DNA from: Halorubrum persicum
GTDB taxonomy: Archaea; Halobacteriota; Halobacteria; Halobacteriales; Haloferacaceae
Direction: 5' to 3'
Assembly: GCF_002727125.1 (NCBI RefSeq)
Contig: NZ_NHOA01000060.1
Span: forward strand, 1-34,066
Length of the DNA stretch: 34,066 nt
Part shown: positions 1 to 33,833 of the stretch, piece by piece
Layout: every line of letters begins with the position of its first letter
How positions within the stretch are numbered: the first letter of the stretch is position 1
Notes under the pieces: generated by a model
Databases searched by the model: none
What the model was told of the DNA's origin: nothing
What the model saw: the letters and a program-made list of their open reading frames with translations, nothing else
Program-made: the position numbers and the translations under genes

Positions 1-146
1 TTCTCCTCGAGCGTCTCCTCGGCCGAATTCCACCCGTTCACGTACCCCTGATGATGGGTGTCGTGATGCCATTCCAGCACCTGCTCGGAAATGTGCGGCT
101 CTAACGCGTCGTAATCGTACGGCAGCGGATCGAGTTCGTAGCTCAT
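1..146 (-). CDS. sod: Superoxide dismutase (Fe/Mn family), N-terminal part, cut by window edge
   Basis: The first 48 codons are visible, beginning [20 protein letters not shown]. The segment contains [14 protein letters not shown], the Fe/Mn-superoxide dismutase signature whose first histidine region contributes an active-site metal ligand. The enzyme dismutates superoxide to peroxide and oxygen in the cytoplasm. The start is supported by a Shine-Dalgarno-like AGGTGAT about 8 nt upstream of the ATG on the minus strand. A TTATAG/TTTAA-rich stretch at about 160-190 is a plausible promoter. The C-terminal metal ligands lie outside the window, so Fe versus Mn preference cannot be judged. Confidence 0.93.
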
Positions 147-541: not shown

Positions 542-563
542 CGGTGGGACTGGGATTCGAACC
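506..563 (-). repeat. 58-bp direct repeat, inner copy, overlapping the intact tRNA-Ser 3' end
   Basis: Exact partner of 384-441. Its left part is the perfect hairpin 512-538 that begins 3 nt after the tRNA 3' end. Its right part is the tRNA T-loop and acceptor strand. Identity stops at 563, inside the T-stem. Confidence 0.85.
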
Positions 564-625
564 CAGGAAGCCGTGAGGCTACCGGTTTTCAAGACCGGCG
601 CAATAGGCCGCTCTGCCACCCCACC
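542..625 (-). tRNA. tRNA-Ser (anticodon UGA), complete, at the left end of the integrated element
   Basis: An 84-nt class II tRNA folds cleanly. The acceptor is GGTGGGG with TCCCACC plus discriminator G. The anticodon arm is CCGGT-CTTGAAA-ACCGG, giving UGA. It has a long variable arm (TAGCC...GGCT) and T-arm CTGGG-TTCGAAT-CCCAG. CCA is not encoded. The last acceptor pair is a G7.U66 wobble. The integrase gene lies on the 5' side of this tRNA and a perfect hairpin (512-538) follows the 3' end. A related but truncated tRNA-Ser(UGA) lies at 10510-10553. The 5' body may be element-derived and the 3' strand host-derived. Confidence 0.95.
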
Positions 626-767
626 GAGAAATCTCAGTGGTACACCCGTGCCGTCCCGGACATTTCGGCTTCTGGACGGTAAACAAAATGACGAACGCTC
701 GTTCCATCGCGGCTCGATTGAATCGGCTTCAAACCACCGGAAACGTCCGTCATAGGGGTGTATTCGC

Positions 768-1871
768 ATGAAATCCCCCGAGAAAGTTGAAGGTATCGTT
801 CTCATCCCCGGCCCCTCGCGCGACTACCTCAACGAACGGCAACTCGTCGCGTACAAGAACCACCGCAAGTCTCTCATCAAGTGGCTCACGCGGCGCGGGA
901 AAGCACCTGATAAACTGGAGGGCTACGCCGATGACACCGCCGAGGCCTATGCCTCCATCCTCGACAAATTCCACCGATGGGCGTGGGACCGCAAGGACTG
1001 CTACACTCTCAACCTTGACCACGACGACGCCGACGCCTATCTCGAAGAACGTGTGATGGCCGACGAAGACTACTCGTCGTCGTACCTGCACAACATCAAA
1101 CTCGCACTGAAGGCGTACTTTCGATTCAGGGACGACACCGATGAGTGGGACCCTAACCTGAAAGTCCGGTCCTCGTCGGGCGTCAGTCAACCCCGTAACT
1201 TTCTGTCAGCCGACGAGCGGCGAAGGCTCCGCGAGGCGGCACTTGAATACGGTAGCGTACCGGCCTACGCCGCGCTCGACCCCGATGAGCGCCGCGAGTG
1301 GAAACGATACCTCGCCCGTCGCTTCAGCAAGCCCATGAACGAAGTCACACGCGACGATTGGGGACGGGCAAACGGATTCAAGTACCCGAGTATCATCCAC
1401 ACTGCACTTGATGCGGGACTGCGCCCCATCGAAGTCGGACGCGCACGAACCTACTGGGTAGACTTGGAGAACTCTGTCCTCCGTATCCCAGAGGAAGAAT
1501 CATCGAAAAACGCCGACAACTGGACGGTCAGTCTTCGAGAGGAGACAACTGATTACCTCGCACGCTGGCTCGAAGAACGGGAATTGTACGAGAAGTACGA
1601 CGACACTGACCGGCTATGGCTCACTCGCCACGGGAACCCGTACAGCGGGTCGTCACTCCGCTACGTCCTCGATGCCGTCTGCGAGGAGGCGGGTATCGAC
1701 CGGGACCTCTCGTGGTACGCTATCCGTCACTCGACGGGCACGTACATGGCCCGAGAAGAAGGCCTCGCCGCGGCACAATCACAACTCCGACACAAGAGTA
1801 TCAACACGACGGCCAAGTACGACCAAGCCCCAGTCGAAGACCGACGCGACGCGCTCGACAAGATGGGGTAA
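768..1871 (+). CDS. Tyrosine recombinase / integrase of the element
   Basis: A 367-aa site-specific recombinase of the tyrosine (phage integrase) family, expected to integrate and excise the island at tRNA-Ser. Residues about 20-125 form the helical core-binding domain. The catalytic domain shows Arg219 (DAGLRPIE), a probable catalytic Lys247, YAIRH at 317-321, His342 (LRHKSINTT) and nucleophile Tyr351 (AKYDQ). The usual first histidine of HxxRH is a tyrosine here (Tyr317), a substitution I believe recurs in some haloarchaeal integrases but cannot verify. It reads away from the tRNA, starts 142 bp from the tRNA 5' end, and is convergent with the zinc-finger gene with a 29-bp gap. All essential residues appear intact, so it may be active. 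Confidence 0.93.
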   Translation: MKSPEKVEGIVLIPGPSRDYLNERQLVAYKNHRKSLIKWLTRRGKAPDKLEGYADDTAEAYASILDKFHRWAWDRKDCYTLNLDHDDADAYLEERVMADEDYSSSYLHNIKLALKAYFRFRDDTDEWDPNLKVRSSSGVSQPRNFLSADERRRLREAALEYGSVPAYAALDPDERREWKRYLARRFSKPMNEVTRDDWGRANGFKYPSIIHTALDAGLRPIEVGRARTYWVDLENSVLRIPEEESSKNADNWTVSLREETTDYLARWLEERELYEKYDDTDRLWLTRHGNPYSGSSLRYVLDAVCEEAGIDRDLSWYAIRHSTGTYMAREEGLAAAQSQLRHKSINTTAKYDQAPVEDRRDALDKMG

Positions 1872-1900
1872 CCCGGAAGGGCTTGCTTCAGTAGCCGTCG

Positions 1901-2767
1901 CTACTCGTTGTTTTGGAACTCACCGAACCGTCGTTCCTCGCTGGTTTCACCGCCGAGTGTACCTGCCGCGTCGCGCAACCACTCGATGAGGCCGCGCAGG
2001 TCGTCGTCCAGCCCCTCCTCGTGTTCGGCGGCCTGTTCCAACTCATCGGCGAGCCGCCGGGCCTCATCGGCTGTCAGCGTCGGTGAGCGGTCGCCCGCCT
2101 CGACGTGGACGCCGTCGTCTTCGAGTGCGGTCGTGACGCCGTCGCTGACTTCGTGCTGGCGAGCCTCGGCGAGAATAGGCTCGAAGACTGGGGACAGGAG
2201 TGCAGGCTGTTCGCGGTCCCCAGTTTCGAGCAGGTGGCGACGCGCCCTGCGTGCCGCTCCCTGCTTGTTCTTGGCGAGCAGTTCGGCGATGTAGCGGTAG
2301 ACCCTCTCGGCGGGAACCGTCGGACCTTCGGCGCGGTCGCTGTCTTCGGGGTCGTTCTCGATGAGTCGGACGACGTTCTCGTCTTCGTCCACGCCAACGC
2401 GAGGGAAGTCCCGCGGTTCGTGTCGTTCCGCGGCGTCATCGGGATGATTCTTCCGACCGGCGACTTGCCCGAGGTGGATGAGCACGCCCTGTTTGCCCGT
2501 GAACGCCTCTCCGCAGTAGGGGCACAGGCGGGCCTCCTGCTCAGTGTCGCGCTCGGTGGGGTATTCCATCTCGACTGTCTCAGTTCCGGCGGTCACCATC
2601 TCCTCCAGCGACACGTCGTCCGGTAGAACTCCCTTCGGACCGTGGCCGTCGCCCTCTGAGTGCAGGACGTGCAGGTGCATCCCTCGGGCCAACTTCTCGG
2701 CATCGCATCCTTCGACCGGGCAGATGACTGTCCGCTCCTCGTTCTCGTGCGTCTCGCGGTCGGTCAT
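1901..2767 (-). CDS. Two-zinc-finger protein of the island, unknown function
   Basis: A 288-aa, very acidic protein with two zinc-finger-like sites near the N-terminus. The first has C16 (ICPVEGC), C21 and histidines at 31, 33 and 36. The second has C82-x2-C85, H98 and H108 (CPYCGEAF ... HLGQVAGRKNH), a C2H2 arrangement. The rest (about 150-288) looks helical: YRYIAELLAKNKQGAARRARRHL, then a charged C-terminus resembling dimerising or protein-binding helices. Its ATG overlaps the stop of the upstream SWIM gene by 4 nt (ATGA), so the two are one operon and probably translationally coupled. A nucleic-acid-binding regulator or accessory factor is plausible; the exact role is not known to me. Confidence 0.82.
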   Translation of the reverse strand: MTDRETHENEERTVICPVEGCDAEKLARGMHLHVLHSEGDGHGPKGVLPDDVSLEEMVTAGTETVEMEYPTERDTEQEARLCPYCGEAFTGKQGVLIHLGQVAGRKNHPDDAAERHEPRDFPRVGVDEDENVVRLIENDPEDSDRAEGPTVPAERVYRYIAELLAKNKQGAARRARRHLLETGDREQPALLSPVFEPILAEARQHEVSDGVTTALEDDGVHVEAGDRSPTLTADEARRLADELEQAAEHEEGLDDDLRGLIEWLRDAAGTLGGETSEERRFGEFQNNE

Positions 2768-3303
2768 CGAGCATCACCCCGCTCGTCGGCGACCTCGAAG
2801 CAGTCGAAACACGGCAGGTCGTCGCCGTCAGGGCCGGGGCATCGCTCGTCCCCGTTGGGGCAGGTATCTGCCGACTCATCGGACTGTGACGCCACAGCGG
2901 CGATTCCTCCGTCCGTCTTCAGGGCATCTGCCCCAGTCGTCGCGCTGTCCGGGAGTCCATCCGATGAGGGCGCGGCGTCGTTCTCGAAAGCGAGGGCCGC
3001 GTTCAACACGACCGGGCCGCCGACCGTCGCCAGCGCGACCTTGTGCTTGCAGTCCCGCTCACGGTGAACGTCTGCCGGACACTCGCACTCTGCGGGCACC
3101 GGGACGCCGTCGCGCTCATCGACACCGACCACGTAGGCGTGGTCGTCTTTCTCGAAGCCGTAACTGGCGTTGGTGACTTCGACTTGGTAGGGACCGACAA
3201 CCGTCAGTTCCCACGTTTCCCACGCGACACGCTTGGCCGTCTTCGGGCCGAAATCCAGTTGCTCAACGATACGCTTTTCTGACGCAGAGGTGTTCTGTCT
3301 CAT
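2764..3303 (-). CDS. SWIM zinc-finger protein with C-terminal Cys4 cluster
   Basis: The open frame continues upstream to 3459, but I place the start at the ATG at 3303 (MRQNTSASEK), giving 179 aa. The upstream extension runs through the operator and promoter region and looks non-coding. Residues 73-87 carry CxC...CxH (CECPADVHRERDCKHK), the SWIM zinc-binding signature. SWIM modules bind DNA or protein partners and occur in recombination mediators and plasmid/virus proteins. The C-terminus adds four cysteines (C148, C155, C165, C168) that could form a second zinc site. It is first gene of a two-gene operon with the zinc-finger gene and diverges from the winged-helix gene at 3513, sharing a control region with twin palindromes. 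Confidence 0.82.
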   Translation of the reverse strand: MRQNTSASEKRIVEQLDFGPKTAKRVAWETWELTVVGPYQVEVTNASYGFEKDDHAYVVGVDERDGVPVPAECECPADVHRERDCKHKVALATVGGPVVLNAALAFENDAAPSSDGLPDSATTGADALKTDGGIAAVASQSDESADTCPNGDERCPGPDGDDLPCFDCFEVADERGDAR

Positions 3304-3398
3304 GGTCTTTGGCTCCACCGAAGACCACCCGTCCGGTGTACCAGCACCGGGCGTTTTCCGCGAGTCACGCCCCAAGAGACGGGCCGCCTTCGCATTTC

Positions 3399-3414
3399 TA
3401 CCGTTGGCGGTAAC
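3399..3414. promoter_or_regulatory. Palindromic operator, copy 1 (TACCG-N4-CGGTAAC)
   Basis: TACCGTTGGCGGTAAC is a perfect 5-4-5 palindrome (TACCG/CGGTA). It lies upstream of the SWIM gene start at 3303 and 67 bp from an identical-architecture site at 3466-3481. The core TACCG-N4-CGGTAAC is shared and only the four central bases differ, which is typical of a repressor-dimer site. Confidence 0.7.
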
Positions 3415-3465
3415 AAAGTTAAAACTAACGGAGTACGCACTATGCGTGTGCAGAAACACAGTTAC

Positions 3466-3481
3466 TACCGCTAACGGTAAC
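3466..3481. promoter_or_regulatory. Palindromic operator, copy 2 (TACCG-N4-CGGTAAC)
   Basis: TACCGCTAACGGTAAC is the second 5-4-5 palindrome, 32 bp upstream of the winged-helix gene at 3513. Nearby GTTAC (3461-3465) and GTTAAC (3483-3488) half-site-like words extend the symmetry. The two operators sit in the shared divergent control region and could mediate cooperative binding by the product of 3513-3758 (inference). Confidence 0.7.
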
Positions 3482-3512
3482 AGTTAACTACGAGCCACGA
3501 CTCCACTCATGC

Positions 3513-3758
3513 ATGAGCGACGACGCGAAACCGGGGCGAAAGCCACGGGTGACAGACGAGGAGATTCTACAACTCTTTCGGGAGACTGACGACCCGGTGC
3601 TCTCGACTGGCGAAGTAACCGAGCAGTTGTCAATTGGGCGGAGCGCCACGTACAAGCGACTCAAATCACTGCGAGAGGGAGGACGACTCCAAGCCAAGAC
3701 GATTGGTAAGAAGAACACTGTGTACTGGCTCGATGAGGCGGAGAAGGGGGAGACGTAG
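3513..3758 (+). CDS. Small winged-helix transcriptional regulator of the island
   Basis: An 81-aa protein that is almost entirely one winged helix-turn-helix domain. Residues 15-60 (TDEEILQLFRE, STGEVTEQLSIGRSATYKRL) give the helix-turn-helix with recognition helix around GRSATYKRLKSL. Residues 58-75 (GRLQAKTIGKKNTVYWL) form the beta-wing. It has the size and composition of haloarchaeal virus/plasmid repressors of the MarR/ArsR-like wHTH type. It is divergent from the SWIM/zinc-finger operon with two identical-pattern palindromes between them, so it is the best candidate for the binding protein and an element switch. The exact family is not determined. Confidence 0.85.
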   Translation: MSDDAKPGRKPRVTDEEILQLFRETDDPVLSTGEVTEQLSIGRSATYKRLKSLREGGRLQAKTIGKKNTVYWLDEAEKGET

Positions 3759-4214
3759 GTTATTACATGAGTGCCCCCGGGTGTGGGTGTAGTATTGGTA
3801 AGTCACCGCGCGTTGGTCGGTGCGATTTGCCTGAATTTCGGGGGTAACGGTTGACCAGCGCGTGCGGTTTCCACGGATAGCGACGAGATGGAACGTGCCG
3901 CATGGAGGGTCGCTGACTCGGCGAGTTTCGGCTCGCACACCATATTCAAAATCGGTATCTATGGACAGTCAACGCAACCTCAGGTTGCAGTTGACGGCCT
4001 GCGGAAGATGTCAAAGACGAATCGAAAGCAATTTTTAGTCTTCGACTCCTCCATTAGAGTGAAGGCAGTTCCTCGCTGGCGGCGTCCCCGACCGTTTCCA
4101 TTTCCTGTCTGTTCAACGCTTGAGTGACCAGTCTGCGCTGTGTCCGGTTGTCTGTTGTTAGCCGCGTAGCCTCGCGTACGACTGTCTGAACAGTGAGAGT
4201 CCGATGAGTGCGGC
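3759..4214. other. Intergenic region with one long palindrome, no convincing gene
   Basis: This is 456 bp of mixed composition. Short open frames (for example 3888-4127) lack the acidic bias of haloarchaeal proteins and have no start signals. The notable content is a near-perfect 28-nt palindrome at 3968-3995. Nothing else was recognised. Confidence 0.6.
3968..3995. repeat. 28-nt near-perfect palindrome (cruciform-capable)
   Basis: The left arm is GTCAACGCAACCT (3968-3980), the centre is C3981, and the right arm is AGGTTGC then GTTGAC (3982-3988 and 3990-3995), with a single bulged A at 3989. The 13-bp arms with a 1-nt centre make this more likely a protein-binding site, cruciform or end-processing site than an RNA terminator loop. 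It lies alone in the gap between the regulator and the orphan gene. Confidence 0.65.
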
Positions 4215-5096
4215 GTGAGCGAAGAACTGCCAAAACACCGACTCATGAGCGTCGAAATTCAATCTGTCGATAGTGCTGACTCTGAAGTACCGACCGGCTA
4301 CCGAATCGAACCAATCCAGCCACAACGGTTCAGAGATTGGAACGATGGACAAGCCGTGGCTCATCGACCGGAGAACCGTCGAGACGACGTACTCCTTGAG
4401 CGGCCAACGATGGAAATGAGCAACGACCACGTGATTGGAAGCACGGAAAAGGGGAGATTTGAAGCGGTTCCGCCTCTCTATTCTTACTCTGTCAAGGGAG
4501 ATAATCTATTCGAGAGGTTCCAGAATCATAACCGGGATAACTGGTGGCGATACAGAAAGGACGTTGAGTCTTCCTCACCATCCGTCGATAACGATTTCAA
4601 ACGACACACTATCCAAGCACTTGCATCTCAATTGGGCCTGCCGCCGTATCAGCGTCGTCGTGCATTTGTCCGGTTCATGAAACTGGACGCTTCGAAGGTA
4701 ACCGGGACATCAGTAGTACACGCTTTCGTTGTCTGCGCGGTTGTTGCTAACAACGAGGCAGAGGCGATGGACAAGTCCAAGGTCTATCATCCTCAGCAGA
4801 GCGACGAAAACAACGACTCACGGTTCCTCCAAATCCACAACACCCTCACGGAAGACCGGATGGAGTTCCCGAGCGACGACCCGCACGAGTGGTTTGATAG
4901 ATGGGTTGATGAAGACCTGTTCCATCCGCCCGTCGATGAAGGAGAGATTACTAAAGTTTACAACAAGCACGTTCAGGGAGACTTACCGACACGACCGGAG
5001 CAGAAATGGGAGTCATTTGTACAGGAAGAGTTGGAAGAAGAACGTTCACGTCCGCAACGGGAACATGAAGGCGCGGTGATGGAATCATCGGACTGA
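4215..5096 (+). CDS. Orphan protein with cyclin-like helical core, possible RNA-polymerase-epsilon-like family
   Basis: A frame of up to 293 aa from a GTG. The true start is uncertain: ATGs at 4245 and 4410 are alternatives, and the protein-like composition begins around the latter. The central part (VPPLYSYSVKGDNLFERF, NRDNWWRYRKDVES, ALASQLGLPPYQRRRAFVRF) resembles, from memory, haloarchaeal proteins annotated as RNA polymerase subunit epsilon, and its middle recalls a TFB/cyclin fold. I could not confirm this. Typical wording DENNDSRFLQ and a C-terminal acidic helix follow. It stands alone, with no operon partner. A transcription-associated accessory protein carried by the island is possible; hypothetical protein is the safe label. 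Confidence 0.6.
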   Translation: MSEELPKHRLMSVEIQSVDSADSEVPTGYRIEPIQPQRFRDWNDGQAVAHRPENRRDDVLLERPTMEMSNDHVIGSTEKGRFEAVPPLYSYSVKGDNLFERFQNHNRDNWWRYRKDVESSSPSVDNDFKRHTIQALASQLGLPPYQRRRAFVRFMKLDASKVTGTSVVHAFVVCAVVANNEAEAMDKSKVYHPQQSDENNDSRFLQIHNTLTEDRMEFPSDDPHEWFDRWVDEDLFHPPVDEGEITKVYNKHVQGDLPTRPEQKWESFVQEELEEERSRPQREHEGAVMESSD

Positions 5097-5511
5097 CACG
5101 GACCTGTGTGACACCCCCTACATAAAGGCGTGAACACTTGTTGTACTGACGGGAGGAAGGCAGAGAGAATTGTTACTCTCACGGACTGGGTTTACACTGC
5201 GTACTGTGTCCACGGGCGTTGAACAGTGTCGGTATCCTCACCTGTCCATTTACATCCATGGTCCGCCGGTCTCCCACCTCTGATGATTAAAGCCCACGAG
5301 TCAAGTTCCGATGAGCCGGCGGAGTGAGGACGCCCGGCATCGCACCGCAGGCGAGCGAAGCGAGCCGAGGAGCGAAGCCCGGAACTCTCCTGCCAACACC
5401 ACGACGGTACTGCGGGGTCCTGCCCGGCGCGTCATCGAGTCAGTCCCCGTCCAAACTCAGTACCGTTCTGGATTCAGGAATCGTACCCCGTGGGTCAGAA
5501 CCCGGAGGCCA
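5097..5511. other. Intergenic region between orphan gene and restriction-modification gene 3' end
   Basis: These 415 bp lie downstream of two convergent genes. I see no gene. The right part is enriched in GAGCGAAGC-type repeats (about 5350-5390). It ends in an 18-bp word (5432-5449) that recurs exactly at 10193-10210 beyond the restriction-modification cassette. Confidence 0.6.
5432..5449. repeat. 18-bp direct repeat flanking the restriction cassette, left copy
   Basis: TCATCGAGTCAGTCCCCG is identical to 10193-10210. A degenerate relative (CTCATCGAGCAGTCGCCG) sits at 9091-9108 inside the divergent promoter of the cassette. The two exact copies bracket the restriction-modification gene and its divergent partner, about 4.8 kb. 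Confidence 0.6.
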
Positions 5512-8500
5512 CTACCAGACTTCCAAGAACTCCTCTACGACCTCCACGTCCTCGTCATCGAGGTCGTACACGTCGTGGAGAATCACGTCATCCAGTTCTA
5601 CCTGCAACTCCTCGGCTTCCGCTTCCAGTTCCGCTATCCGCGCCTCATCGGACTCGTACTCGTCCATGAGCGCCAGCACGTCGTCACGGGTCGGCACGTC
5701 CATGTTCAGAATCTCCATGCGACCGAGCCGCTTGTCCTGCGCTTTCAGCAACTCGAAGACGAAGTCCCGAACCTCCTCGCGCTCGAAGTCCAGCGTGTGG
5801 CCTCGTTTCATCACGACCTGATAGACCATCTTCGAATCGACCTCCATCTTGTCGTTGGTCCGAATCGGGTCTTGGCGGTAGTCGTCGTCATCGAGGCTCG
5901 TGGACGAAACGAGGTCAAGAACCGTGCTATCCCGGTCGTAGTCTTCGAGGTAGTTCCGAACATCCGAAGTCTGGTACTTGAGGTCCGTTCGCTCCTTCCG
6001 CTTCTCGGTAATCTGTTCGGCCTTCGTCTCAATCTGGTCGTCCGGGGCGTTCTCAGAAACGACGATGGGGTGCGGTTCCAAGTACCGCTTGTTGTAGGAG
6101 TAGTATTTCCCACCGAAGATGGGTGCGATGTGCTTGTGGAAGAACTCCAAGACCTTCGAGTTCAGTAGAGCGACGTAGTACAGCAGGTCGTCAGAACTCG
6201 GGGCGTACTCATCTCGCAGTTGGATTCCGTAGCCTCCCGCGTTTCCTCCGCCGACAAAGTAATATTCACCAGCAGTATCGGCGACAAAACGATTGTAACT
6301 GCTCATGATGTTTGTCATAATCTTGTCTGGTTCCATCTTCTCGACGTTCTGACGCCGACCGAAGGCCCACCACTGTTCTTCGTTCTGAAGACTACGGTCC
6401 TTGAGATAATCCTCATGTGCCTTGAAGAAGTCCCACGCATGGCTGAAGTCCTCCCTCAAGGTTTCTTCGGTCATCATGTCTGCATCGCCGTTCTCAACTT
6501 CGTAGGGGAAAATGAGCCACAGGCCTTCCCAGTTTACGCCCCATCGGTCAATCTCTGGTCCTCGGAGTAGACGACGCAAGATGTCTCGTTCCATCGGCAT
6601 GGCTTCGTCGTCGCCCTTGGCGCGGAACTGGACGACTTCTTGGTCAGGATTATCTTCGACATATCCGAGGTACACTGGATTCGCGCTCGTCTGTATCCCC
6701 ACGAAGACTTCTTTTGAAATTTCCCTGATTCGAGTACCTGCGGACGTTTTCAGATGGTCAAAGACTCGCTGTTCGTCTTGAGGCATCGGCTTCCATGAGG
6801 CCAAGTAGTCATCCTGATTGTCCTCTCGAAGATTCTGCTGTGGATAGAGGAATAGGTCGTACTCTGTCACGTCATCCGGTGTCTCCCACTGTTCAAGGTG
6901 GTAAATTTCTTCGAGAACCCCCTCTCTTTCATCTGCAAACCGGGCACACTGTACCGTGTTGTCATCCGGGTCCTGCTCTCTATCTACGGAAACGATACAG
7001 GGGTACGGCGTCGCGGCGTCAAAGACTTCCGTATCCTTGAAGTCCAGTAGTTGAGCAATCGGTTCCTCGGTGAGTTGTTCACGGATTTTCTGTGCGTAGT
7101 CGTTAGTGAACAACCGATTGGGGCAAATGTAGGTCAACTTCCCGTCCTCGCTCAACCACTCCAATCCTCGCTCGATGAACGGGACGTAGATGTCGAAATT
7201 CTTGATTGCACTCGCATATCGCTTCGAGTACTCGTCTTTCATCCCACTCAGGTTCTGGATTCGGACGTAGGGCGGGTTCGCCACGACAACGTCGAACTCC
7301 TCCTCGTCCTTGATGCGGTCAACCTCGTTACGGTCCTCGATGAAAGACTTCGCCCGACCGTTGTACTCCTCGAACTGGTGGAGTGCTGACTGTTGGCCTT
7401 CGTGTTCCGTGCTCCCGTCTTGCTTTTCGAGGAGGGTCGGCGAGAGTGTGTCTGCAACGTGAATCTCGAACCCGTCCATCGTGTAGCCCGGGTTCTGCTC
7501 GGTCACTTTGTCGTAGAGGTCGATGGTACGGAACAGCAGATTGATTTGAGTGATGTGGGCGGCGAAAGGATTGATGTCAACACCGTAGACGTTCTCCTCG
7601 ACTCGTTCGAGAATCGTGCGGGCCTCATCGGGTTCGAGCCGATGAACGCTCGTTCTCCCGAACTTGTCCACGTAGTGCTTGATGAGCCGCTCAGTGACTT
7701 CGGTGAGGAACGTCCCACTACCACAGGCAGGGTCAAGCACCTGCTTGTCCCCAAGGCCCTCGCCCGGTCGGTAGTCCACCGAGTCGAGCATGAACTGGAC
7801 AACTTCGAGTGGCGTGTAGTACTCGCCCAGTTCTTTCCGTTCCTGCTTGGGGAGGTAGTCCTCGTAGACGTGGCCGAGGATGTCGCGGTTGACGTACTCG
7901 AAGTCGAAGCGATTCAGCCGCTTTAGCACGGTCCCAAGCGTGTGGTTGAGGTCGTCTTCGAGGTCTTCCTGTCGCTTCTTCTCATCGGAGTCGAAACTCG
8001 TCCGTTTGTCGCGGCTGACCCACCACCAGTCGAAGATACCGAGTTCGTAGAGGTCCGGGTAGTGGTCGTCTATGTCGTCGTACGTATCCATCAGCGCGTC
8101 GAGATACGGACTTTCGTCGCGGTCCAAGGCATCGGCCATCCCTCGGGAGGAAAGACGTGTGTGGCCCACGATTTCCTTGTCTTCGGCGATACGTGCGAAC
8201 AGTGCGCGGTTCAGGATGATGTACGCCGTTTCCCGGCAGAAGGCTTCTTTCGCGTTCCCGCTCTGCCCGGTGTACTCCCGCCAGTCTTTCCAGTCGGGGA
8301 ACGTCGAATCAAGGAACGAACGCGGGTAGGAATCCTCGGGGCGGTCCCGGTAATCCTCGAAGAACTCTTTCAGAACGTCGGTCAGAACATCCAGCGAGTC
8401 CTTGACTGCGTCCAAGAACAGTTCGTACCCCTCGTCGTCAGTGCCCGGCTGGTACTGGACGGGCACTTCCTGATACGTCTCGCGGAAGTACTCGGCATCC

Positions 8501-9006
8501 CCGAGGTCAACGAATCGACTGCGGTGTAGAGATTCCAGTTCCGAGAGCGCACGCCGCTGGTCATCGGACAGGTCCTCGAAGTCAGTATCCGCGACGGCAT
8601 CTACCTCGAAATCGTCGATGACGCTCACGGCCCGGTCGTCGCCATCGTAGTCATAGAGCCGGAACTCGTGGCCGTTGGTCAGGATACCGTAGTCGGCACT
8701 CCCGACTCCGTTCATGTAGGTTTCCAACTGCTCTACGTCGTCCAGTCCGAGGTTGTGAGAGGGGCGTTTCGTCTCGCAGACGATGACCGGGAACGGTGGG
8801 TCACTGTCGTCGTAGCACAGCACGTCTTTCCGCTCGTCCTCGAAGTTGACGTGACCCTCTCCGACTGTCCGTGACCAGTCCAGCGCGTTGGTAAACAGGT
8901 GGTCCACGAGACTGAATCGGAAATCGAACTCGCTTCCTTCCTGCCGGATTTCGTCAGAGACAGTCACAAAGGCGTCATGGAGGCTTCGTAGCGAGGTGTC
9001 CGACAT
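5512..9006 (-). CDS. Type IIG restriction-modification enzyme (Eco57I-like, nuclease-methyltransferase fusion)
   Basis: The open frame extends to 9093, but the ATG at 9006 ([13 protein letters not shown]) fits a TTTTATC box 30-36 bp upstream, giving 1164 aa. One polypeptide combines three parts. The N-terminal PD-(D/E)xK nuclease has ERKD with Asp61 and VCETKRP with Glu78 and Lys80. The gamma-class N6-adenine methyltransferase shows GEYYTP (394-399), motif I DPACGSG (425-431), VDIN, and catalytic NPPY (577-580). The C-terminal half is a TaqI/Eco57I-like target-recognition region ending in a charged coiled coil. Such enzymes methylate one strand of an asymmetric site and cut nearby, defending against foreign DNA. 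All catalytic motifs are intact. It is divergent from the gene at 9165; recognition sequence cannot be predicted. Confidence 0.93.
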
Positions 9007-9164
9007 TTGCCTCGGCTTCTCCCCCTTGAGTGATAAAAGCAACCGGAACTCGTAGAGGAATACCCCGAATTGTTCTGACCGCGGCGGCCTCATCGAGCAG
9101 TCGCCGCCTGAGTTCGCACGGAATCGTCCGCAGTCTTTTGCCCCGTGGAGGCCAACGCTGTCAT
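9007..9164. promoter_or_regulatory. Divergent promoter region of the restriction cassette
   Basis: 158 bp separate the two divergent genes. Minus-strand TTTTATC at about 9033-9042 is placed as a TATA element for the restriction enzyme. CTTTTG at about 9136-9140 lies 27 bp before the ATG at 9165. A degenerate copy of the flanking 18-bp repeat (9091-9108) lies between, so both genes could share one control site. Confidence 0.5.
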
Positions 9165-10157
9165 ATGTCTTTCAGTACGAGTTGGCACAACCTGCTCGAT
9201 AACGTCGAGGAGGTGGCCGACGACGCGACCCTCTACACACCGCTCTCGCGGAAGGCGTTTCGCGTGACTGACGTGCAAGAACACCGCGTGGTCATCGAGT
9301 TCGAGGACAAAGACGAGACGCGCCCACTCCAGCGCGACCAGTTCGAGACGCTGTTCCAGCGCGTCAACGATGCCCACGATGGCTTCGACCTTGACCGACT
9401 CCCACCGGACGGTGAACCCTATGCGACGGTGTTGAGTCTGCATCCGCGCTTCGAGTTAAACGACCGCGAGAGTACGCTGACCGAGACCGAGACCTCCACC
9501 GGCTCGCCACTCGTGGAGGCACAGCTCTCCGCGGAGGCGACTGCCGAGGCTGACCGTGAGGAACCGGACGTATCCGTGTACTCCGATGCACTGCTTTTGA
9601 TTGACGCCCTCGAACGCCACGACCCGACCGACCTCAACGGGATGGAGACACCGGCGCTGGTGAATCTCTACACACTTCTTTCGGACGTACAGCGCAACGC
9701 CAACGACCTCCGGCAGGACGTTCGGAGTGTGTTGCTCGACCGGCTCCACCACGACCGGCCCGTCAGTGGGCAGTTCGGTTCGGTCCAGCGGACCACGCGA
9801 CGGAATCGCTCGCTTAAAGACGAGGAGACGGTTCTCAACGCGCTGGAAGCCGCTGGCATCGACAGAGAGCGCGTGACGAGTGTAGACGCCAGCAAGGTAG
9901 ACGACGCACTGGACGTGACCGAACTCTCTGAGTCCGACCTGTACGAGATTGAAGAAAGCGAGTACGTCCGCAAGGCCGAGGTGGATGAAGCCGAGAAAGA
10001 GACGCGACTCCAAGGACTGAAAGACCAACTGGCCGCCGCCGACGAGGACACCGAAGACCTCCAAGAGGAAATCGAGGAGTTAGAGGACCGGATTGACGAC
10101 CTCACGAGTTTCGACTCCGCGTCATCCTTCCACACGAAATCAGGGGGTGAATCGTAG
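9165..10157 (+). CDS. Uncharacterised coiled-coil protein paired with the type IIG enzyme
   Basis: A 330-aa protein starting at ATG 9165 ([18 protein letters not shown]); the longer frame from 9030 runs through promoter DNA. Residues 1-85 look like a compact alpha/beta module ([35 protein letters not shown]). Residues 130-200 form a helical middle. Residues about 285-315 form a strong acidic coiled coil ([19 protein letters not shown] continuing to LEDRIDDL). No nuclease, ATPase or methylase motif is visible. I do not recognise the family. Divergent placement beside the restriction enzyme, and the shared flanking repeats, suggest a partner or controller of that system or a separate defence protein. 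Confidence 0.8.
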
Positions 10158-10192
10158 CGGTTTGGTGGACTCAGTCGGCTACTCTCGCCGCC

Positions 10193-10210
10193 TCATCGAG
10201 TCAGTCCCCG
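10193..10210. repeat. 18-bp direct repeat flanking the restriction cassette, right copy
   Basis: Exact match to 5432-5449. On the minus strand the word spells a Gly-Thr/Asp-Asp codon context followed by TGA and then CTCGATGA, so at least this copy coincides with the 3' end of a former gene. Confidence 0.6.
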
Positions 10211-10293
10211 GTCATCTCGAACGCCTCGCGGCGCAATTCTCGTTTCTCGCTCTCCGTCCGGGCGTCGTAGTGTTTTCCAGAATCTCCACACGG
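10201..10293 (-). pseudogene. C-terminal remnant of an unknown gene
   Basis: On the minus strand 30 sense codons precede a TGA, with typical haloarchaeal charged composition (HYDARTESEKRELRREAF followed by EMTGD and stop). An in-frame stop immediately upstream means only the C-terminus survives. I do not recognise the parent protein. It supports the idea that the island's right end has been rearranged. Confidence 0.35.
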
Positions 10294-10509
10294 TCAGTCG
10301 TCCCCCTTAACAACAGTCTCCTAAAGAGCAAACTGTCCCCATCATGTTCTCATTTCGAGTAGAACCTCTTTCTTTCGAGAAGAAAGTAAAGGAAGGAACT
10401 AATCAGGTCAGTTTATCCAACCACCTATTTTTTATGGCACCGTAAACTAAGCATCGGGTAGAAGCCGGAATACGGGGTATTGCACGAGACTCAGGGCGGA
10501 ATAATATCA

Positions 10510-10553
10510 CCTGCTCTCAAGGCAGGCGCAATGGGCCACTCTGCCATCCCACC
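10510..10553 (-). pseudogene. Truncated tRNA-Ser(UGA): 5' half only, right boundary of the island
   Basis: These 44 nt match the first 44 nt of the intact tRNA-Ser with 8 differences: acceptor 5' strand GGTGGGA, D-arm GCAGAGTGGCC, and anticodon arm CCTGC-CTTGAGA-GCAGG (UGA). Two anticodon-stem differences are compensatory pairs (G-C to U-A and U-A to C-G), so it descends from a functional tRNA. The variable arm, T-arm and 3' acceptor strand are missing. Its acceptor strand would pair perfectly with TCCCACC, the 3' strand now found at the island's left end. Confidence 0.85.
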
Positions 10554-10579
10554 GCACCCGGACCGTCGGGGGCGTCCGA

Positions 10580-11110
10580 CTAAGGGGTGTCGGTGTCGGT
10601 CGCCGCGGTCCCCCGAAGCCGGTAGTGGATCGCGAACACGCTGAGCGCGGCGAGGATCGGCGGCACGACGCCGGCGACCCGCGGGAGCCCGTAGAGGGCG
10701 CTGACGACGACCGACTCGGTCGGGTCGCGGAGCTCCGCCGGCGCGGAGATGATCATGCCGGCGTACAGCGAGAGGAGGAACAGGAAGCCGGCGTACGCGA
10801 GCTTCCGGTCGTATCCCGGTTTCACGGGGTCGCCGCGGCGGTGCCGGCGAGCGACGAACAGCAGGGGCGCGAGCAGCGGCGCGACCGCGGCGAAGCCGGC
10901 GATCACGTACAGCGACCGCGAGAACAGGAACGTCCCACCCTGTACCTCCGCGGTTTCGGCCATCCAGACGATGAGCGCGAGGGTGACCACCGTCGCGATC
11001 AGCCCGGCCGCGAGCGCCCCGATCACGCCGTAGACGCGCATGGTCCACGACTCCGTCTCGCGGATCGCGTAGGGGATCGCACCGAACACCCCGCGGTAGC
11101 TGTCTGCCAT
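10580..11110 (-). CDS. Four-helix integral membrane protein, unknown function
   Basis: A 176-aa protein when started at the ATG at 11110 (MADSYRGVFGAIPY); an ATG two codons upstream (11116) is the alternative. A TTTAAT box at 11135-11140 lies about 27 bp before 11110, which supports a leaderless start there. Four hydrophobic segments are visible: about residues 26-47 (VIGALAAGLIATVVTLALIV), 65-85 (LYVIAGFAAVAPLLAPLLFV), 104-120 and 140-160. A short basic loop (ARRHRRGDP) follows helix 2. It looks like a haloarchaeal conserved membrane protein without a known role. It is the first intact gene outside the island and diverges from the prenyltransferase-like gene. Confidence 0.8.
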   Translation of the reverse strand: MADSYRGVFGAIPYAIRETESWTMRVYGVIGALAAGLIATVVTLALIVWMAETAEVQGGTFLFSRSLYVIAGFAAVAPLLAPLLFVARRHRRGDPVKPGYDRKLAYAGFLFLLSLYAGMIISAPAELRDPTESVVVSALYGLPRVAGVVPPILAALSVFAIHYRLRGTAATDTDTP

Positions 11111-11129
11111 CGACATCGCTACGGCCGAC

Positions 11130-13295: not shown

Positions 13296-14732
13296 ATGCG
13301 AACGCTCGTTTTCGACGGTCGGACCGGCGCCGCCGGCGACATGATCTGCGCCGCGCTGATCGCGGCCGGCGCCGACCCCGACGCCCTCGCGCCCGTGAGC
13401 GACCGGCTTCCGGTCCGGTACGAGGTCGGCGACGCGACGAAAAACGGAATCCGGGCGACGACCGTCGACGTGGTCCTCGACGGCGACAGCGACGAGGAGG
13501 GCGACGACGCCGGCGGTTCCGGTGCGGATAAGCACGGCCATGCCCACGAGCACGACCACGCGCACGGACACAGTCATACGCACGGGCACGACCATTCCCA
13601 CGAGCACGGTCATACGCATGACCACGACGACGCGGAGCACACCGACGATGACCCCGAGCACGCCGAAGGAGCCGGCGTCCACCGCAGCTACCCCGAGGTC
13701 GTCACGCTCGTCCGGTCGATGGGTCTCCCCGAGTCGGTCGAGTCCGTCGCGCTCGACGCCTTCGAGCGACTCGGTCGCGCTGAGGCCTCGGTCCACGGCA
13801 CCGACCTCGACGAGACGCACTTTCACGAGGTCGGTGCCGACGACGCGATCGCCGACGTGGTCGGCGCGGCGCTGCTCCTCGACGACCTCGACCCCGACCG
13901 CGTCGTGACGACCCCGGTCGCGACCGGCGGCGGCGAGGTCGAGATGAGCCACGGCGTCTACCCGGTTCCGGCGCCGGCGACGACCGAAATCGCGTCCGGA
14001 GCCGACTTCGCGATGGTCGGCGGGCCGGTCGACCGCGAGCTGCTCACGCCCACGGGCGCCGCGATCCTCGCCGCGGTCGCCGAGGGCGTCGACGCGATCC
14101 CGGACCTCGACCTCGACGCCGCCGGCTACGGAGCGGGCGACGCGACGTTTGACCGGTATCCGAACGTGCTCCGGGCGCTGGTCGGCGAGGAGCACGAGCC
14201 GGGAGATGAGCGGCACGGACGCGGCGACGCCGCCCGCGCTCCCGACGACCGCGCCGGCGGCCTCGTCCACGACGACATCGCCGTTCTCGAAACGAACCTC
14301 GACGACGCCTCCCCCGAGGTGCTCGGCGGGCTCCAGGAGACGCTCAAACGCGCCGGCGCGCGCGACGTGACGATCGTGCCGACGACGATGAAGAAGTCCC
14401 GCCCGGGCCATCTCGTGACGGTGATCTGCAAGCCCGACGACGCCGAGGCGGTCGCGGAGCGGCTCGCTCGCGAGACGGGCACGCTCGGGGTTCGTCAGTC
14501 GGGCGCGAGCCACCGGTGGATCGCCGAACGAGACTTCGAGACGGCGGTCGTCTCGGTCGACGGCGACGAGCACGAGGTGACCGTGAAGGTGGCCTCGACC
14601 GTCGACGGCGACGTGTACGACGTGAGCGCCGAGTACGACGACGCCGCCGCGGTCGCCGAGGCGACCGGGCTGCCGATCCGGGACGTGGTCCGCCGGGCGG
14701 AGCGGGACGGACGCGACCGGATCGGCGAGTAG
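13296..14732 (+). CDS. larC: LarC, nickel-pincer cofactor nickel-insertion protein, with histidine-rich insert
   Basis: 478 aa starting at ATG 13296; the frame upstream is antisense to the phosphate transporter gene. LarC inserts nickel into the pyridinium-bisthiocarboxylate mononucleotide to form the nickel-pincer cofactor of lactate racemase-type enzymes. Family features include FDGRTGAAGDM at the N-terminus, THFHEVGADDAIADVVG, ATGGGEVEMSHGVYPVPAPAT, LLTPTGAAIL, and ETNLDDASPEVLGGL with TMKKSRPGHLVTVIC in the C-terminal domain. Residues about 76-112 form a His-rich run (alternating H with G, D, E, T), longer than I would expect and suited to nickel storage. LarB, LarE and LarA homologues are not in this window. 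Confidence 0.92.
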   Translation: MRTLVFDGRTGAAGDMICAALIAAGADPDALAPVSDRLPVRYEVGDATKNGIRATTVDVVLDGDSDEEGDDAGGSGADKHGHAHEHDHAHGHSHTHGHDHSHEHGHTHDHDDAEHTDDDPEHAEGAGVHRSYPEVVTLVRSMGLPESVESVALDAFERLGRAEASVHGTDLDETHFHEVGADDAIADVVGAALLLDDLDPDRVVTTPVATGGGEVEMSHGVYPVPAPATTEIASGADFAMVGGPVDRELLTPTGAAILAAVAEGVDAIPDLDLDAAGYGAGDATFDRYPNVLRALVGEEHEPGDERHGRGDAARAPDDRAGGLVHDDIAVLETNLDDASPEVLGGLQETLKRAGARDVTIVPTTMKKSRPGHLVTVICKPDDAEAVAERLARETGTLGVRQSGASHRWIAERDFETAVVSVDGDEHEVTVKVASTVDGDVYDVSAEYDDAAAVAEATGLPIRDVVRRAERDGRDRIGE

Positions 14733-33131: not shown

Positions 33132-33833
33132 ATGATCGACGTCACGATGGATATGGAGCAGTTCGACTGCCCGTTCATCGATACGTCCGCCGACCACGAT
33201 GTCGACTTCTCCGCGATGCACTGGCAGCTCGACACGGCTGCCGAGCAGTTGGAGACGCGGCTGCTCGTCGAGTCGTCGGACCGCTACGAGCTTGGCGAGG
33301 GGCTCGCGGCGCTCCGCGACCACGAGAACATGGCGGAGTACAAGCAGTTCTCGAAGCAGGATGGCACCGCGATCATCCGGACCGTCATCGAGGAGACGAA
33401 CGCGATGTCGACGATCACCGACCACGGCGGGTACATCACCGGCCCGTTCCGGATCGCGGACGGCTCCGAGCAGTGGCAGGTGGGGTTCGACGACGAGGCG
33501 ACGACGGAAGCGGCGCTCCACGACCTCGAGAAGGGCAACGAGTTCGTCGTCGAAGACCAGTCTGAGCTGTCGATGGAGTCGCTGTTCGACACGATGCGGA
33601 ACGCGAACGCGGCGTCGACGATGCTTGACGCCTGCCGCGATCTCACCGACGTCGAGCGCGACACGATCGAGACCGCCGCCGAGGAGGGGTACTTCGAGTC
33701 GCCTCGCGACGCGACGCTGTCGACCCTCGCCGACGAGTTCGACGTGTCGACCGCGGCGGTCTCAAAGAACATGCGCCGCGGCGAGAAGAAACTGCTCCGC
33801 AGCGTCGTCGCCGCGCTCGATCGGATAAACTAA
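33132..33833 (+). CDS. Bacterio-opsin-activator-type HTH transcriptional regulator
   Basis: 233 aa from ATG 33132, about 27 bp after a TATATA box (leaderless). Residues 1-150 are an N-terminal sensor-like domain (FDCPFIDTSADHDVDFSAM, TAIIRTVIEETNAMSTI, GGYITGPFRIADGSEQWQV). Residues about 175-230 are the HTH_10/Bat-type DNA-binding domain: LTDVERDTIETAAEEGYFES, TLSTLADEFDVSTAAVSKNM, RRGEKKLLRS. There is no PAS or GAF domain, so it is a short Bat-like regulator. It is 51 bp after the ligase gene. Targets are unknown, but the ligase operon and its own promoter are natural candidates. Confidence 0.9.
   Translation: MIDVTMDMEQFDCPFIDTSADHDVDFSAMHWQLDTAAEQLETRLLVESSDRYELGEGLAALRDHENMAEYKQFSKQDGTAIIRTVIEETNAMSTITDHGGYITGPFRIADGSEQWQVGFDDEATTEAALHDLEKGNEFVVEDQSELSMESLFDTMRNANAASTMLDACRDLTDVERDTIETAAEEGYFESPRDATLSTLADEFDVSTAAVSKNMRRGEKKLLRSVVAALDRIN

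Follow-up and report, generated by a model that had tools for sequence, protein, structure and literature searches.

An integrated element that probably swaps the 5' half of its host's tRNA-Ser(UGA) gene in Halorubrum persicum

Which parts of a working transfer RNA (tRNA) gene belong to the host, and which to the element beside it? The question is raised by a 34,066-nucleotide (nt) stretch of Halorubrum persicum DNA (contig NZ_NHOA01000060.1; hereafter the window), in which a whole tRNA-Ser(UGA) gene and a displaced tRNA fragment flank an interval with an integrase gene, which is how the Islander database defines an island. ARAGORN called the tRNA-Ser (anticodon tga) at 540-626 on the minus strand, the gene body being 542-625, and the 44-nt fragment GGTGGGATGGCAGAGTGGCCCATTGCGCCTGCCTTGAGAGCAGG at 10510-10553 lies in direct orientation to it, likewise on the minus strand and on the tRNA's 5' side, as in Islander's 5'-fragment islands; the uninterrupted target gene that Islander also looks for is present in relatives. 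The pair is in the sequence just as an earlier note on this DNA had described it: the copies differ at 8 of 44 positions (7, 16, 21, 30, 32, 38, 40 and 42), and the acceptor 3' strand TCCCACC pairs fully with the fragment's GGTGGGA, whereas it forms a G7-U66 wobble with the intact gene's GGTGGGG. We explain the locus, with a probability of roughly 0.9 judged from sequence, by a site-specific element related to HSTV2 that swapped the 5' half of the host tRNA-Ser(UGA) through recombination in the D-arm. An integrative element with an HSTV2-related tyrosine integrase would have recombined its attachment site (attP) with the D-arm of the host gene; this attP would bear a tRNA-Ser(UGA) 5' half and, on the integrase side, upstream sequence of the element itself. 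Strand exchange at about tRNA positions 22-29 would then join the element's 5' half to the host's 3' half as the working tRNA at 542-625, and the host promoter and tRNA positions 1-29, followed by the attP remnant, would end up at the far end (10510-10553). Comparison between genomes shows the insertion, the swap, the chimeric ends and the recurrence in a clade, and no other copy of this tRNA was found in the genome.

The gene to the right of the island (10580-11116) was detected in 51 of the 52 genomes of the genus, and in ten fetched same-genus loci its homologue adjoins an uninterrupted tRNA-Ser(UGA), with a superoxide-dismutase-like gene (window 1-146) on the other side in most of them, as in the window. 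All ten empty sites carry A7 and have GGTCTTGAAAACCGG as anticodon arm, whereas either T or C stands at positions 16 and 21. When positions 1-24 of the fragment are joined to the intact gene from position 25 (any join within 22-29 is equivalent), the result is an 84-nt tRNA identical to those of three close relatives with empty sites (G023, G004, G027). The anticodon arm of the fragment is TGCCTTGAGAGCAGG, as opposed to GGTCTTGAAAACCGG at the empty sites, and two genomes of other families, G111 and G223, have a native tRNA 5' half that matches the reconstructed attP half, GGTGGGGTGGCAGAGCGGCCTATTGCGCCTGCCTTGAGAGCAGG, exactly. From the empty-site match and the attP-half match we conclude that both ends are chimeric and that the element brought the 5' half of a foreign tRNA-Ser lineage. 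The working tRNA is thus a chimera with its 5' part and 5' flank from the island and its 3' part from the host, while the anticodon arm of the fragment is element DNA and only about positions 1-29 are host-derived. A functional tRNA of a different tRNA-Ser lineage was the source of the attP remnant, as the remnant's compensating stem pairs show; they also point to an exchange upstream of the anticodon loop. The G7-U66 wobble is a scar of the swap; C66 accompanies native G7 in tRNAs of the genus (G005, G007, G013), and G7-U66 occurs only in the window among the loci read. Within one metagenome-assembled Halorubrum (G043), an empty contig (L092, T16) and an integrated one (L093, C16) share 98% identity across the 482 bp that extend outward from the tRNA.

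The earlier note had proposed a working tRNA made of a host 3' strand and an element-supplied 5' body, and the empty sites show exactly the tRNA that this predicts. It had also placed the stranded host 5' half at the right end; the host 5' end is indeed there, but it spans only about positions 1-29, not 44 nt. In the same way, the alignment with island-less relatives that it called for returned a 5' end like the fragment and a 3' end like the intact gene, but an anticodon arm unlike the fragment's. The compensating stem pairs, which it had read as a sign that both copies derive from functional genes, lie in the element-derived anticodon arm, not in the host gene, and so give no evidence of a second functional gene in the host.

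Table 1. Features of the window that bear on the proposed swap, and the main cargo gene
Feature	Coordinates	Strand	Basis
Integrated element, ~9.9 kb	626-10509		Absent from ten same-genus loci with colinear flanks
Working tRNA-Ser(UGA), chimeric	542-625	-	ARAGORN and empty-site comparison
Working tRNA, element part (tRNA 1-22)	~604-625	-	Empty-site comparison
Working tRNA, host part (tRNA 30-84)	542-596	-	Empty-site comparison
Probable crossover interval ATTGCGCC (tRNA 22-29)	597-604	-	Haplotype switch points and arm dyad centre 23.5
Displaced 5' fragment, chimeric	10510-10553	-	Positions 1-29 as in G023, G004, G027; positions 30-44 differ
Fragment, host part (tRNA 1-22)	10532-10553	-
Fragment, probable crossover interval	10525-10532	-
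Fragment, attP remnant of element (anticodon arm of foreign tRNA-Ser)	10510-10524	-	Reconstructed attP half as in native tRNAs of G111, G223
Original host tRNA 5' flank, conserved CCGACACCCCTTAGTCGG	10554-10600	-	41 bp adjoining the fragment identical to G023 empty site
Integrase-tRNA spacer, 142 bp, now tRNA 5' flank and presumed promoter region	626-767		139-148 bp in clade; spacer alignment
Candidate arm-like motif, integrase side, ATTTCGGCTTCT	662-673	+	11/12 inverted match with distal motif; equally good shuffles 0/100
Candidate arm-like motif, distal, ATTCCGGCTTCT	10460-10471	-	Conserved GGCTTCTAC/CCTTCTAC at +90/91 in eight elements
Tyrosine integrase, 367 aa, HSTV2-related	768-1871	+	Pfam Phage_integrase 1.9e-18
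Type IIG-like restriction-methylase, 1193 aa, with HSDR_N and TaqI_C-like regions	5512-9093	-	PADLOC REase_MTase_IIG 9e-70; Pfam Eco57I 9.5e-35

Could the two copies have come together in some other way? Chance origin of the pair is excluded, because the same pair flanking an integrase recurs in other genomes and empty sites with colinear flanks exist. It might still be argued that the intact gene is all host and the right-hand fragment an unrelated relic of another element or a duplicated piece of tRNA, given that other repeated tRNA pieces exist at tRNA-Ser loci in the genus and that C16/T21 is native in some Halorubrum (G017, G019). We regard this as very improbable: the fragment runs on into the 5' flank that is native to the host tRNA, the intact gene into one common to homologous elements, and A7 stands at all ten empty sites read. 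We give slightly less credence still to an exchange of the 5' half by homologous recombination or gene conversion between the tRNA genes of different species, with the island inserted independently. Haloarchaea are generally known to recombine freely across species, and the element-derived 5' half resembles tRNAs of other genera; yet in both copies the switch coincides with the ends of the element, and this layout is found repeatedly, with one clade of integrases and a fixed spacing.

The swap by an integrated element is not an isolated case, since a whole integrase clade has the same arrangement. The window's integrase is 46.4% identical to that of HSTV-2 over 98% of the query, compared with the 30% over 60% of the protein by which a 2021 review (PMC8371274) delimits its HSTV2-like family, and it carries the motifs GLRPIE, YAIRH, LRHK and AKYDQ. 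Pfam recognizes a clear Phage_integrase domain as well as a SAM-like N-terminal domain at 22.5 bits against a cut-off of 22.3, whereas the review gives HSTV2-like integrases a Phage_integrase domain only; we would place the protein near that family. Its frame is whole (367 amino acids) and lies outside the junction, so that integration does not split it. At about 15 loci from several haloarchaeal families, clade integrases adjoin tRNA-Ser(UGA). Where the integrases are about 58-77% identical (L065-L070, L093, L119-L121, L123 and the truncated L091 and L101), the tRNA 5' end always faces the integrase start at 139-148 bp, and in most cases the other end of the element, roughly 3-14 kb off, bears a 5' fragment; two more distant members (L074 and L077, about 56% identity) have the same arrangement with a larger spacing. 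By contrast, in all 56 rows of the integrase tree with a different neighbouring tRNA (Glu, Arg, Gly, Cys, Met, His, Pro, Leu), it is the 3' end of the tRNA that points towards the integrase. A single group takes in the 12 tRNA-Ser rows, requiring one change, in 86% of bootstrap trees, with support of 88/45 at its base and 100/100 for a ten-member core. Among the sister rows are a 3'-type tRNA-Met case (L072) and loci with a second, mirrored layout of 5' replacement (L073, L179-L181), in which a 5' fragment of tRNA-Arg(UCG) or tRNA-Leu(GAG) lies beside the integrase and the tRNA is restored at the far end.

In two of these mirrored loci (L179, L181), TTGGACCCACGCC comes after the stranded 5' half of tRNA-Leu and is able to re-pair with the acceptor 5' strand GCGTGGG into a shortened tRNA-like fold. 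Near-whole tRNA-Ser(UGA) copies at both element ends in L119 (G405) and L074 (G274) imply a full-length copy in attP, which is possibly the ancestral, untrimmed state. A scan of viral contigs with the integrase found no relative. Differing tRNA 5' flanks in G044, G051 and G018 were considered as a second type of 5' element, but none of the three yielded an integrase relative, and the flank of G044 and G051 holds chromosomal amino-acid-transporter genes. Intron-containing tRNAs, as possible targets of integrases for which ARAGORN gave no tRNA, were not found either; the sister-group cases are 5' fragments.

Where within the tRNA does strand exchange take place? The haplotypes in the window switch at tRNA positions 22-29, an interval that lies inside the dyad GGC[CYATTGC]GCC of the D-arm (597-609), as read from the sequence. 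The identity block of L077 stops at position 30, and L120 has C21 in its fragment but T21 in its tRNA. Inverted GGCTTCTAC-like motifs, which we consider candidate integrase-binding sites, occur in eight elements: on the integrase side they lie about 47 bp before the tRNA begins, and on the distal side at +90/91. Upon scanning seven elements for inverted 12-mers, we obtained the best shared centre at 23.5, the middle of the D-arm dyad, with a mean of 8.86 against a background of 5.61 (standard deviation 0.68) and a maximum of 7.57 over 200 shuffled sets, although the elements are related and the shared centre does not equal seven independent observations. Three of five 3'-type relatives showed clear dyads, the best of which are centred at 36.5 (L072), 33 (L076) and 35 (L078), each at most 1 nt from the middle of the anticodon. 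The exchange point is probably the D-arm (positions 22-29) and not the anticodon loop, with the exact crossover estimated from these patterns. A real swap could also have occurred by exchange in the anticodon loop, as in the 3'-type relatives, with the stem differences arising later through gene conversion or mutation: the SSV1 integrase exchanges there (PMC8371274), the loop CTTGA is common to both copies, and the 3'-type dyads just described point to the same place. We consider this unlikely, because a broken anticodon stem in the pre-integration tRNA would follow, and both the end of the shared block in L077 and the Ser-clade dyad centre speak against it.

Several observations nevertheless weigh against a D-arm swap as we reconstruct it. 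The dyad was not recovered in L077 or in the tRNA-Arg/Leu sister group, its centre is shifted in L119, and L120 gave only a weaker one, at 20.5. The nearest empty-site genomes belong to other species (about 83-90% local identity), and, since positions 16 and 21 are variable in the genus, the haplotypes alone would also fit an exchange further upstream (positions 8-20). In L067 (G181, Halobellus salinus), the anticodon arm of the fragment at 13422-13482 is mismatched (GGT/GCAGG) and not readily explained by one exchange, and some 700 bp of additional DNA lie between the fragment and the conserved host flank; this locus probably has a more complex history with several rounds of integration. On balance, we lean towards the view that in one haloarchaeal integrase clade the site of exchange shifted from the anticodon loop into the D-arm of tRNA-Ser(UGA) and the polarity was reversed, such that each integration supplants both the 5' body and the promoter of a tRNA that is essential and present in a single copy, yields inter-genus chimeric tRNAs, and leaves a host that cannot lose the element's tRNA end. 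If true, the D-arm is an exchange site beyond the three tRNA gene regions usually described, namely the anticodon arm, the T arm and the 3' end (PMC8371274). The same review remarks that pTN3 cleavage could border the D loop; hence, D-arm exchange has been considered before.

Is the host bound to the island? Searches with the 3' and 5' halves found no second tRNA-Ser(UGA) in the assembly (97.65% complete), only this gene and its pieces; most genomes of the genus likewise have a single 5' half. By the decoding rules, the host very probably needs the chimeric gene to read UCA codons, in agreement with what the earlier note had suggested. As integration leaves the conserved host flank CCGACACCCCTTAGTCGG about 9.9 kb from the working gene, the spacer of the element must presumably supply transcription; the spacer alignment showed conserved blocks, none of which we could name as a promoter with confidence. 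We take the element to be the source of the promoter, and the chimeric tRNA to be functional and essential. Because the working gene needs island DNA, loss of the tRNA end except by precise excision should be lethal, and relics with the tRNA end are predicted. G031 looks like a relic that keeps only this end: its integrase is reduced to about 37 amino acids, a second 5' half was not found, and a flank whose distance from the tRNA is about 50 bp in relatives is here about 2 kb from it, while an element-type 5' flank still adjoins the tRNA. An element-supplied promoter and 5' half of a single-copy tRNA suggests a maintenance mechanism in which only precise excision is tolerable, and G031 looks fixed. 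As a separate observation, L103 (G051) has, from 5108, 28 host-like nt of a 5' fragment followed by a different hairpin, CTAATCTTGACAGATTAG, and the patterns used did not find an intact tRNA-Ser(UGA) in this assembly (99% complete).

How does the haloarchaeal clade relate to known systems? Nearly all known elements that target tRNA genes replace the 3' end. Islands that replace the 5' half are rare but already known, which bears out the suggestion that this one is unusual: Islander lists 5' fragments for 159 of 3919 islands (PMC4383910), and the 2021 review (PMC8371274) calls pTN3-like integrases unique in archaea in using the tRNA 5' half. In the pTN3-like elements of Thermococcales (Cossu 2017, PMC5495485; Badel 2021, PMC8371274), the attachment site in the host (attB) is the 5' half of the tRNA gene, and the rebuilt tRNA is cut off from its original promoter and depends on integrase-side DNA, as here. 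However, the pTN3 integrase is suicidal, its gene being split on integration, and targets tRNA-Leu through a 41-bp shared site, whereas in the haloarchaeal clade the integrase gene is whole and 142 bp away, the target is tRNA-Ser(UGA), and we place the exchange in the D-arm; as its gene is not split, the clade works like pTN3 integration without being a member of that family. The HSTV2-like haloarchaeal integrases at tRNA 3' ends are homologous to the window's (about 50-58% identity), adjoin their target tRNA and have inverted arm-like motifs, but it is the 3' end of the tRNA that they face and the 3' half that they restore; the host promoter stays where it was, and their dyad, where clear, is at the anticodon loop. 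Islander's 5'-fragment islands (PMC4383910) are likewise bounded by a whole tRNA and a displaced 5' fragment; they are scattered database entries, which we liken to this island by layout, not by integrase or exchange point. The tRNA-dependent lysogeny of mycobacteriophages (PMC10865867) also makes an essential host tRNA function depend on element-encoded tRNA sequence, but there the host gene, disrupted at a core of about 10 bp, is not rebuilt and a separate whole phage tRNA of the same isotype takes its place, whereas here a chimeric gene is rebuilt intact at the junction; more similar to the phage case are the full-tRNA attP forms in G405 and G274. Finally, the islands at the 5' end of dusA, as far as the part of their description consulted goes (PMC4482086), share an integrase family specific for the 5' end of a conserved gene, but have a protein-coding target and bacterial integrases. 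The literature searched, which covers few subscription journals, held no description of a haloarchaeal 5'-replacing clade. A 5'-replacing clade inside a 3'-restoring family offers a comparative test of how an integrase changes site and polarity, with attachment sites ranging from full-tRNA (G405, G274) to trimmed forms; furthermore, tRNA bodies exchanged between genera by mobile elements would affect the use of tRNA genes as vertical markers.

Besides the restriction-methylase, the cargo of the island includes a winged-helix protein, a protein with a SWIM zinc finger and proteins that viruses also have. Among the seven proteins tested, none was recognized as a capsid protein or a relaxase, and there were weak scaffold-like matches only; ARAGORN found no further tRNA inside the element; its call at 33648-33744, a tRNA with a four-base anticodon (cgcg), is probably a false positive. 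A stretch comprising the final 21 nt of the tRNA (T-arm and acceptor 3' end) is repeated up to three times 80-370 bp downstream of the gene in 21 of the 47 tRNA-Ser(UGA) loci read, with no such copies upstream. These tail repeats are not part of the island, because they are present at empty sites too. They recall the repeats behind E. coli tyrT, and those of the window, at 384-441 and 506-563, include the trailer hairpin.

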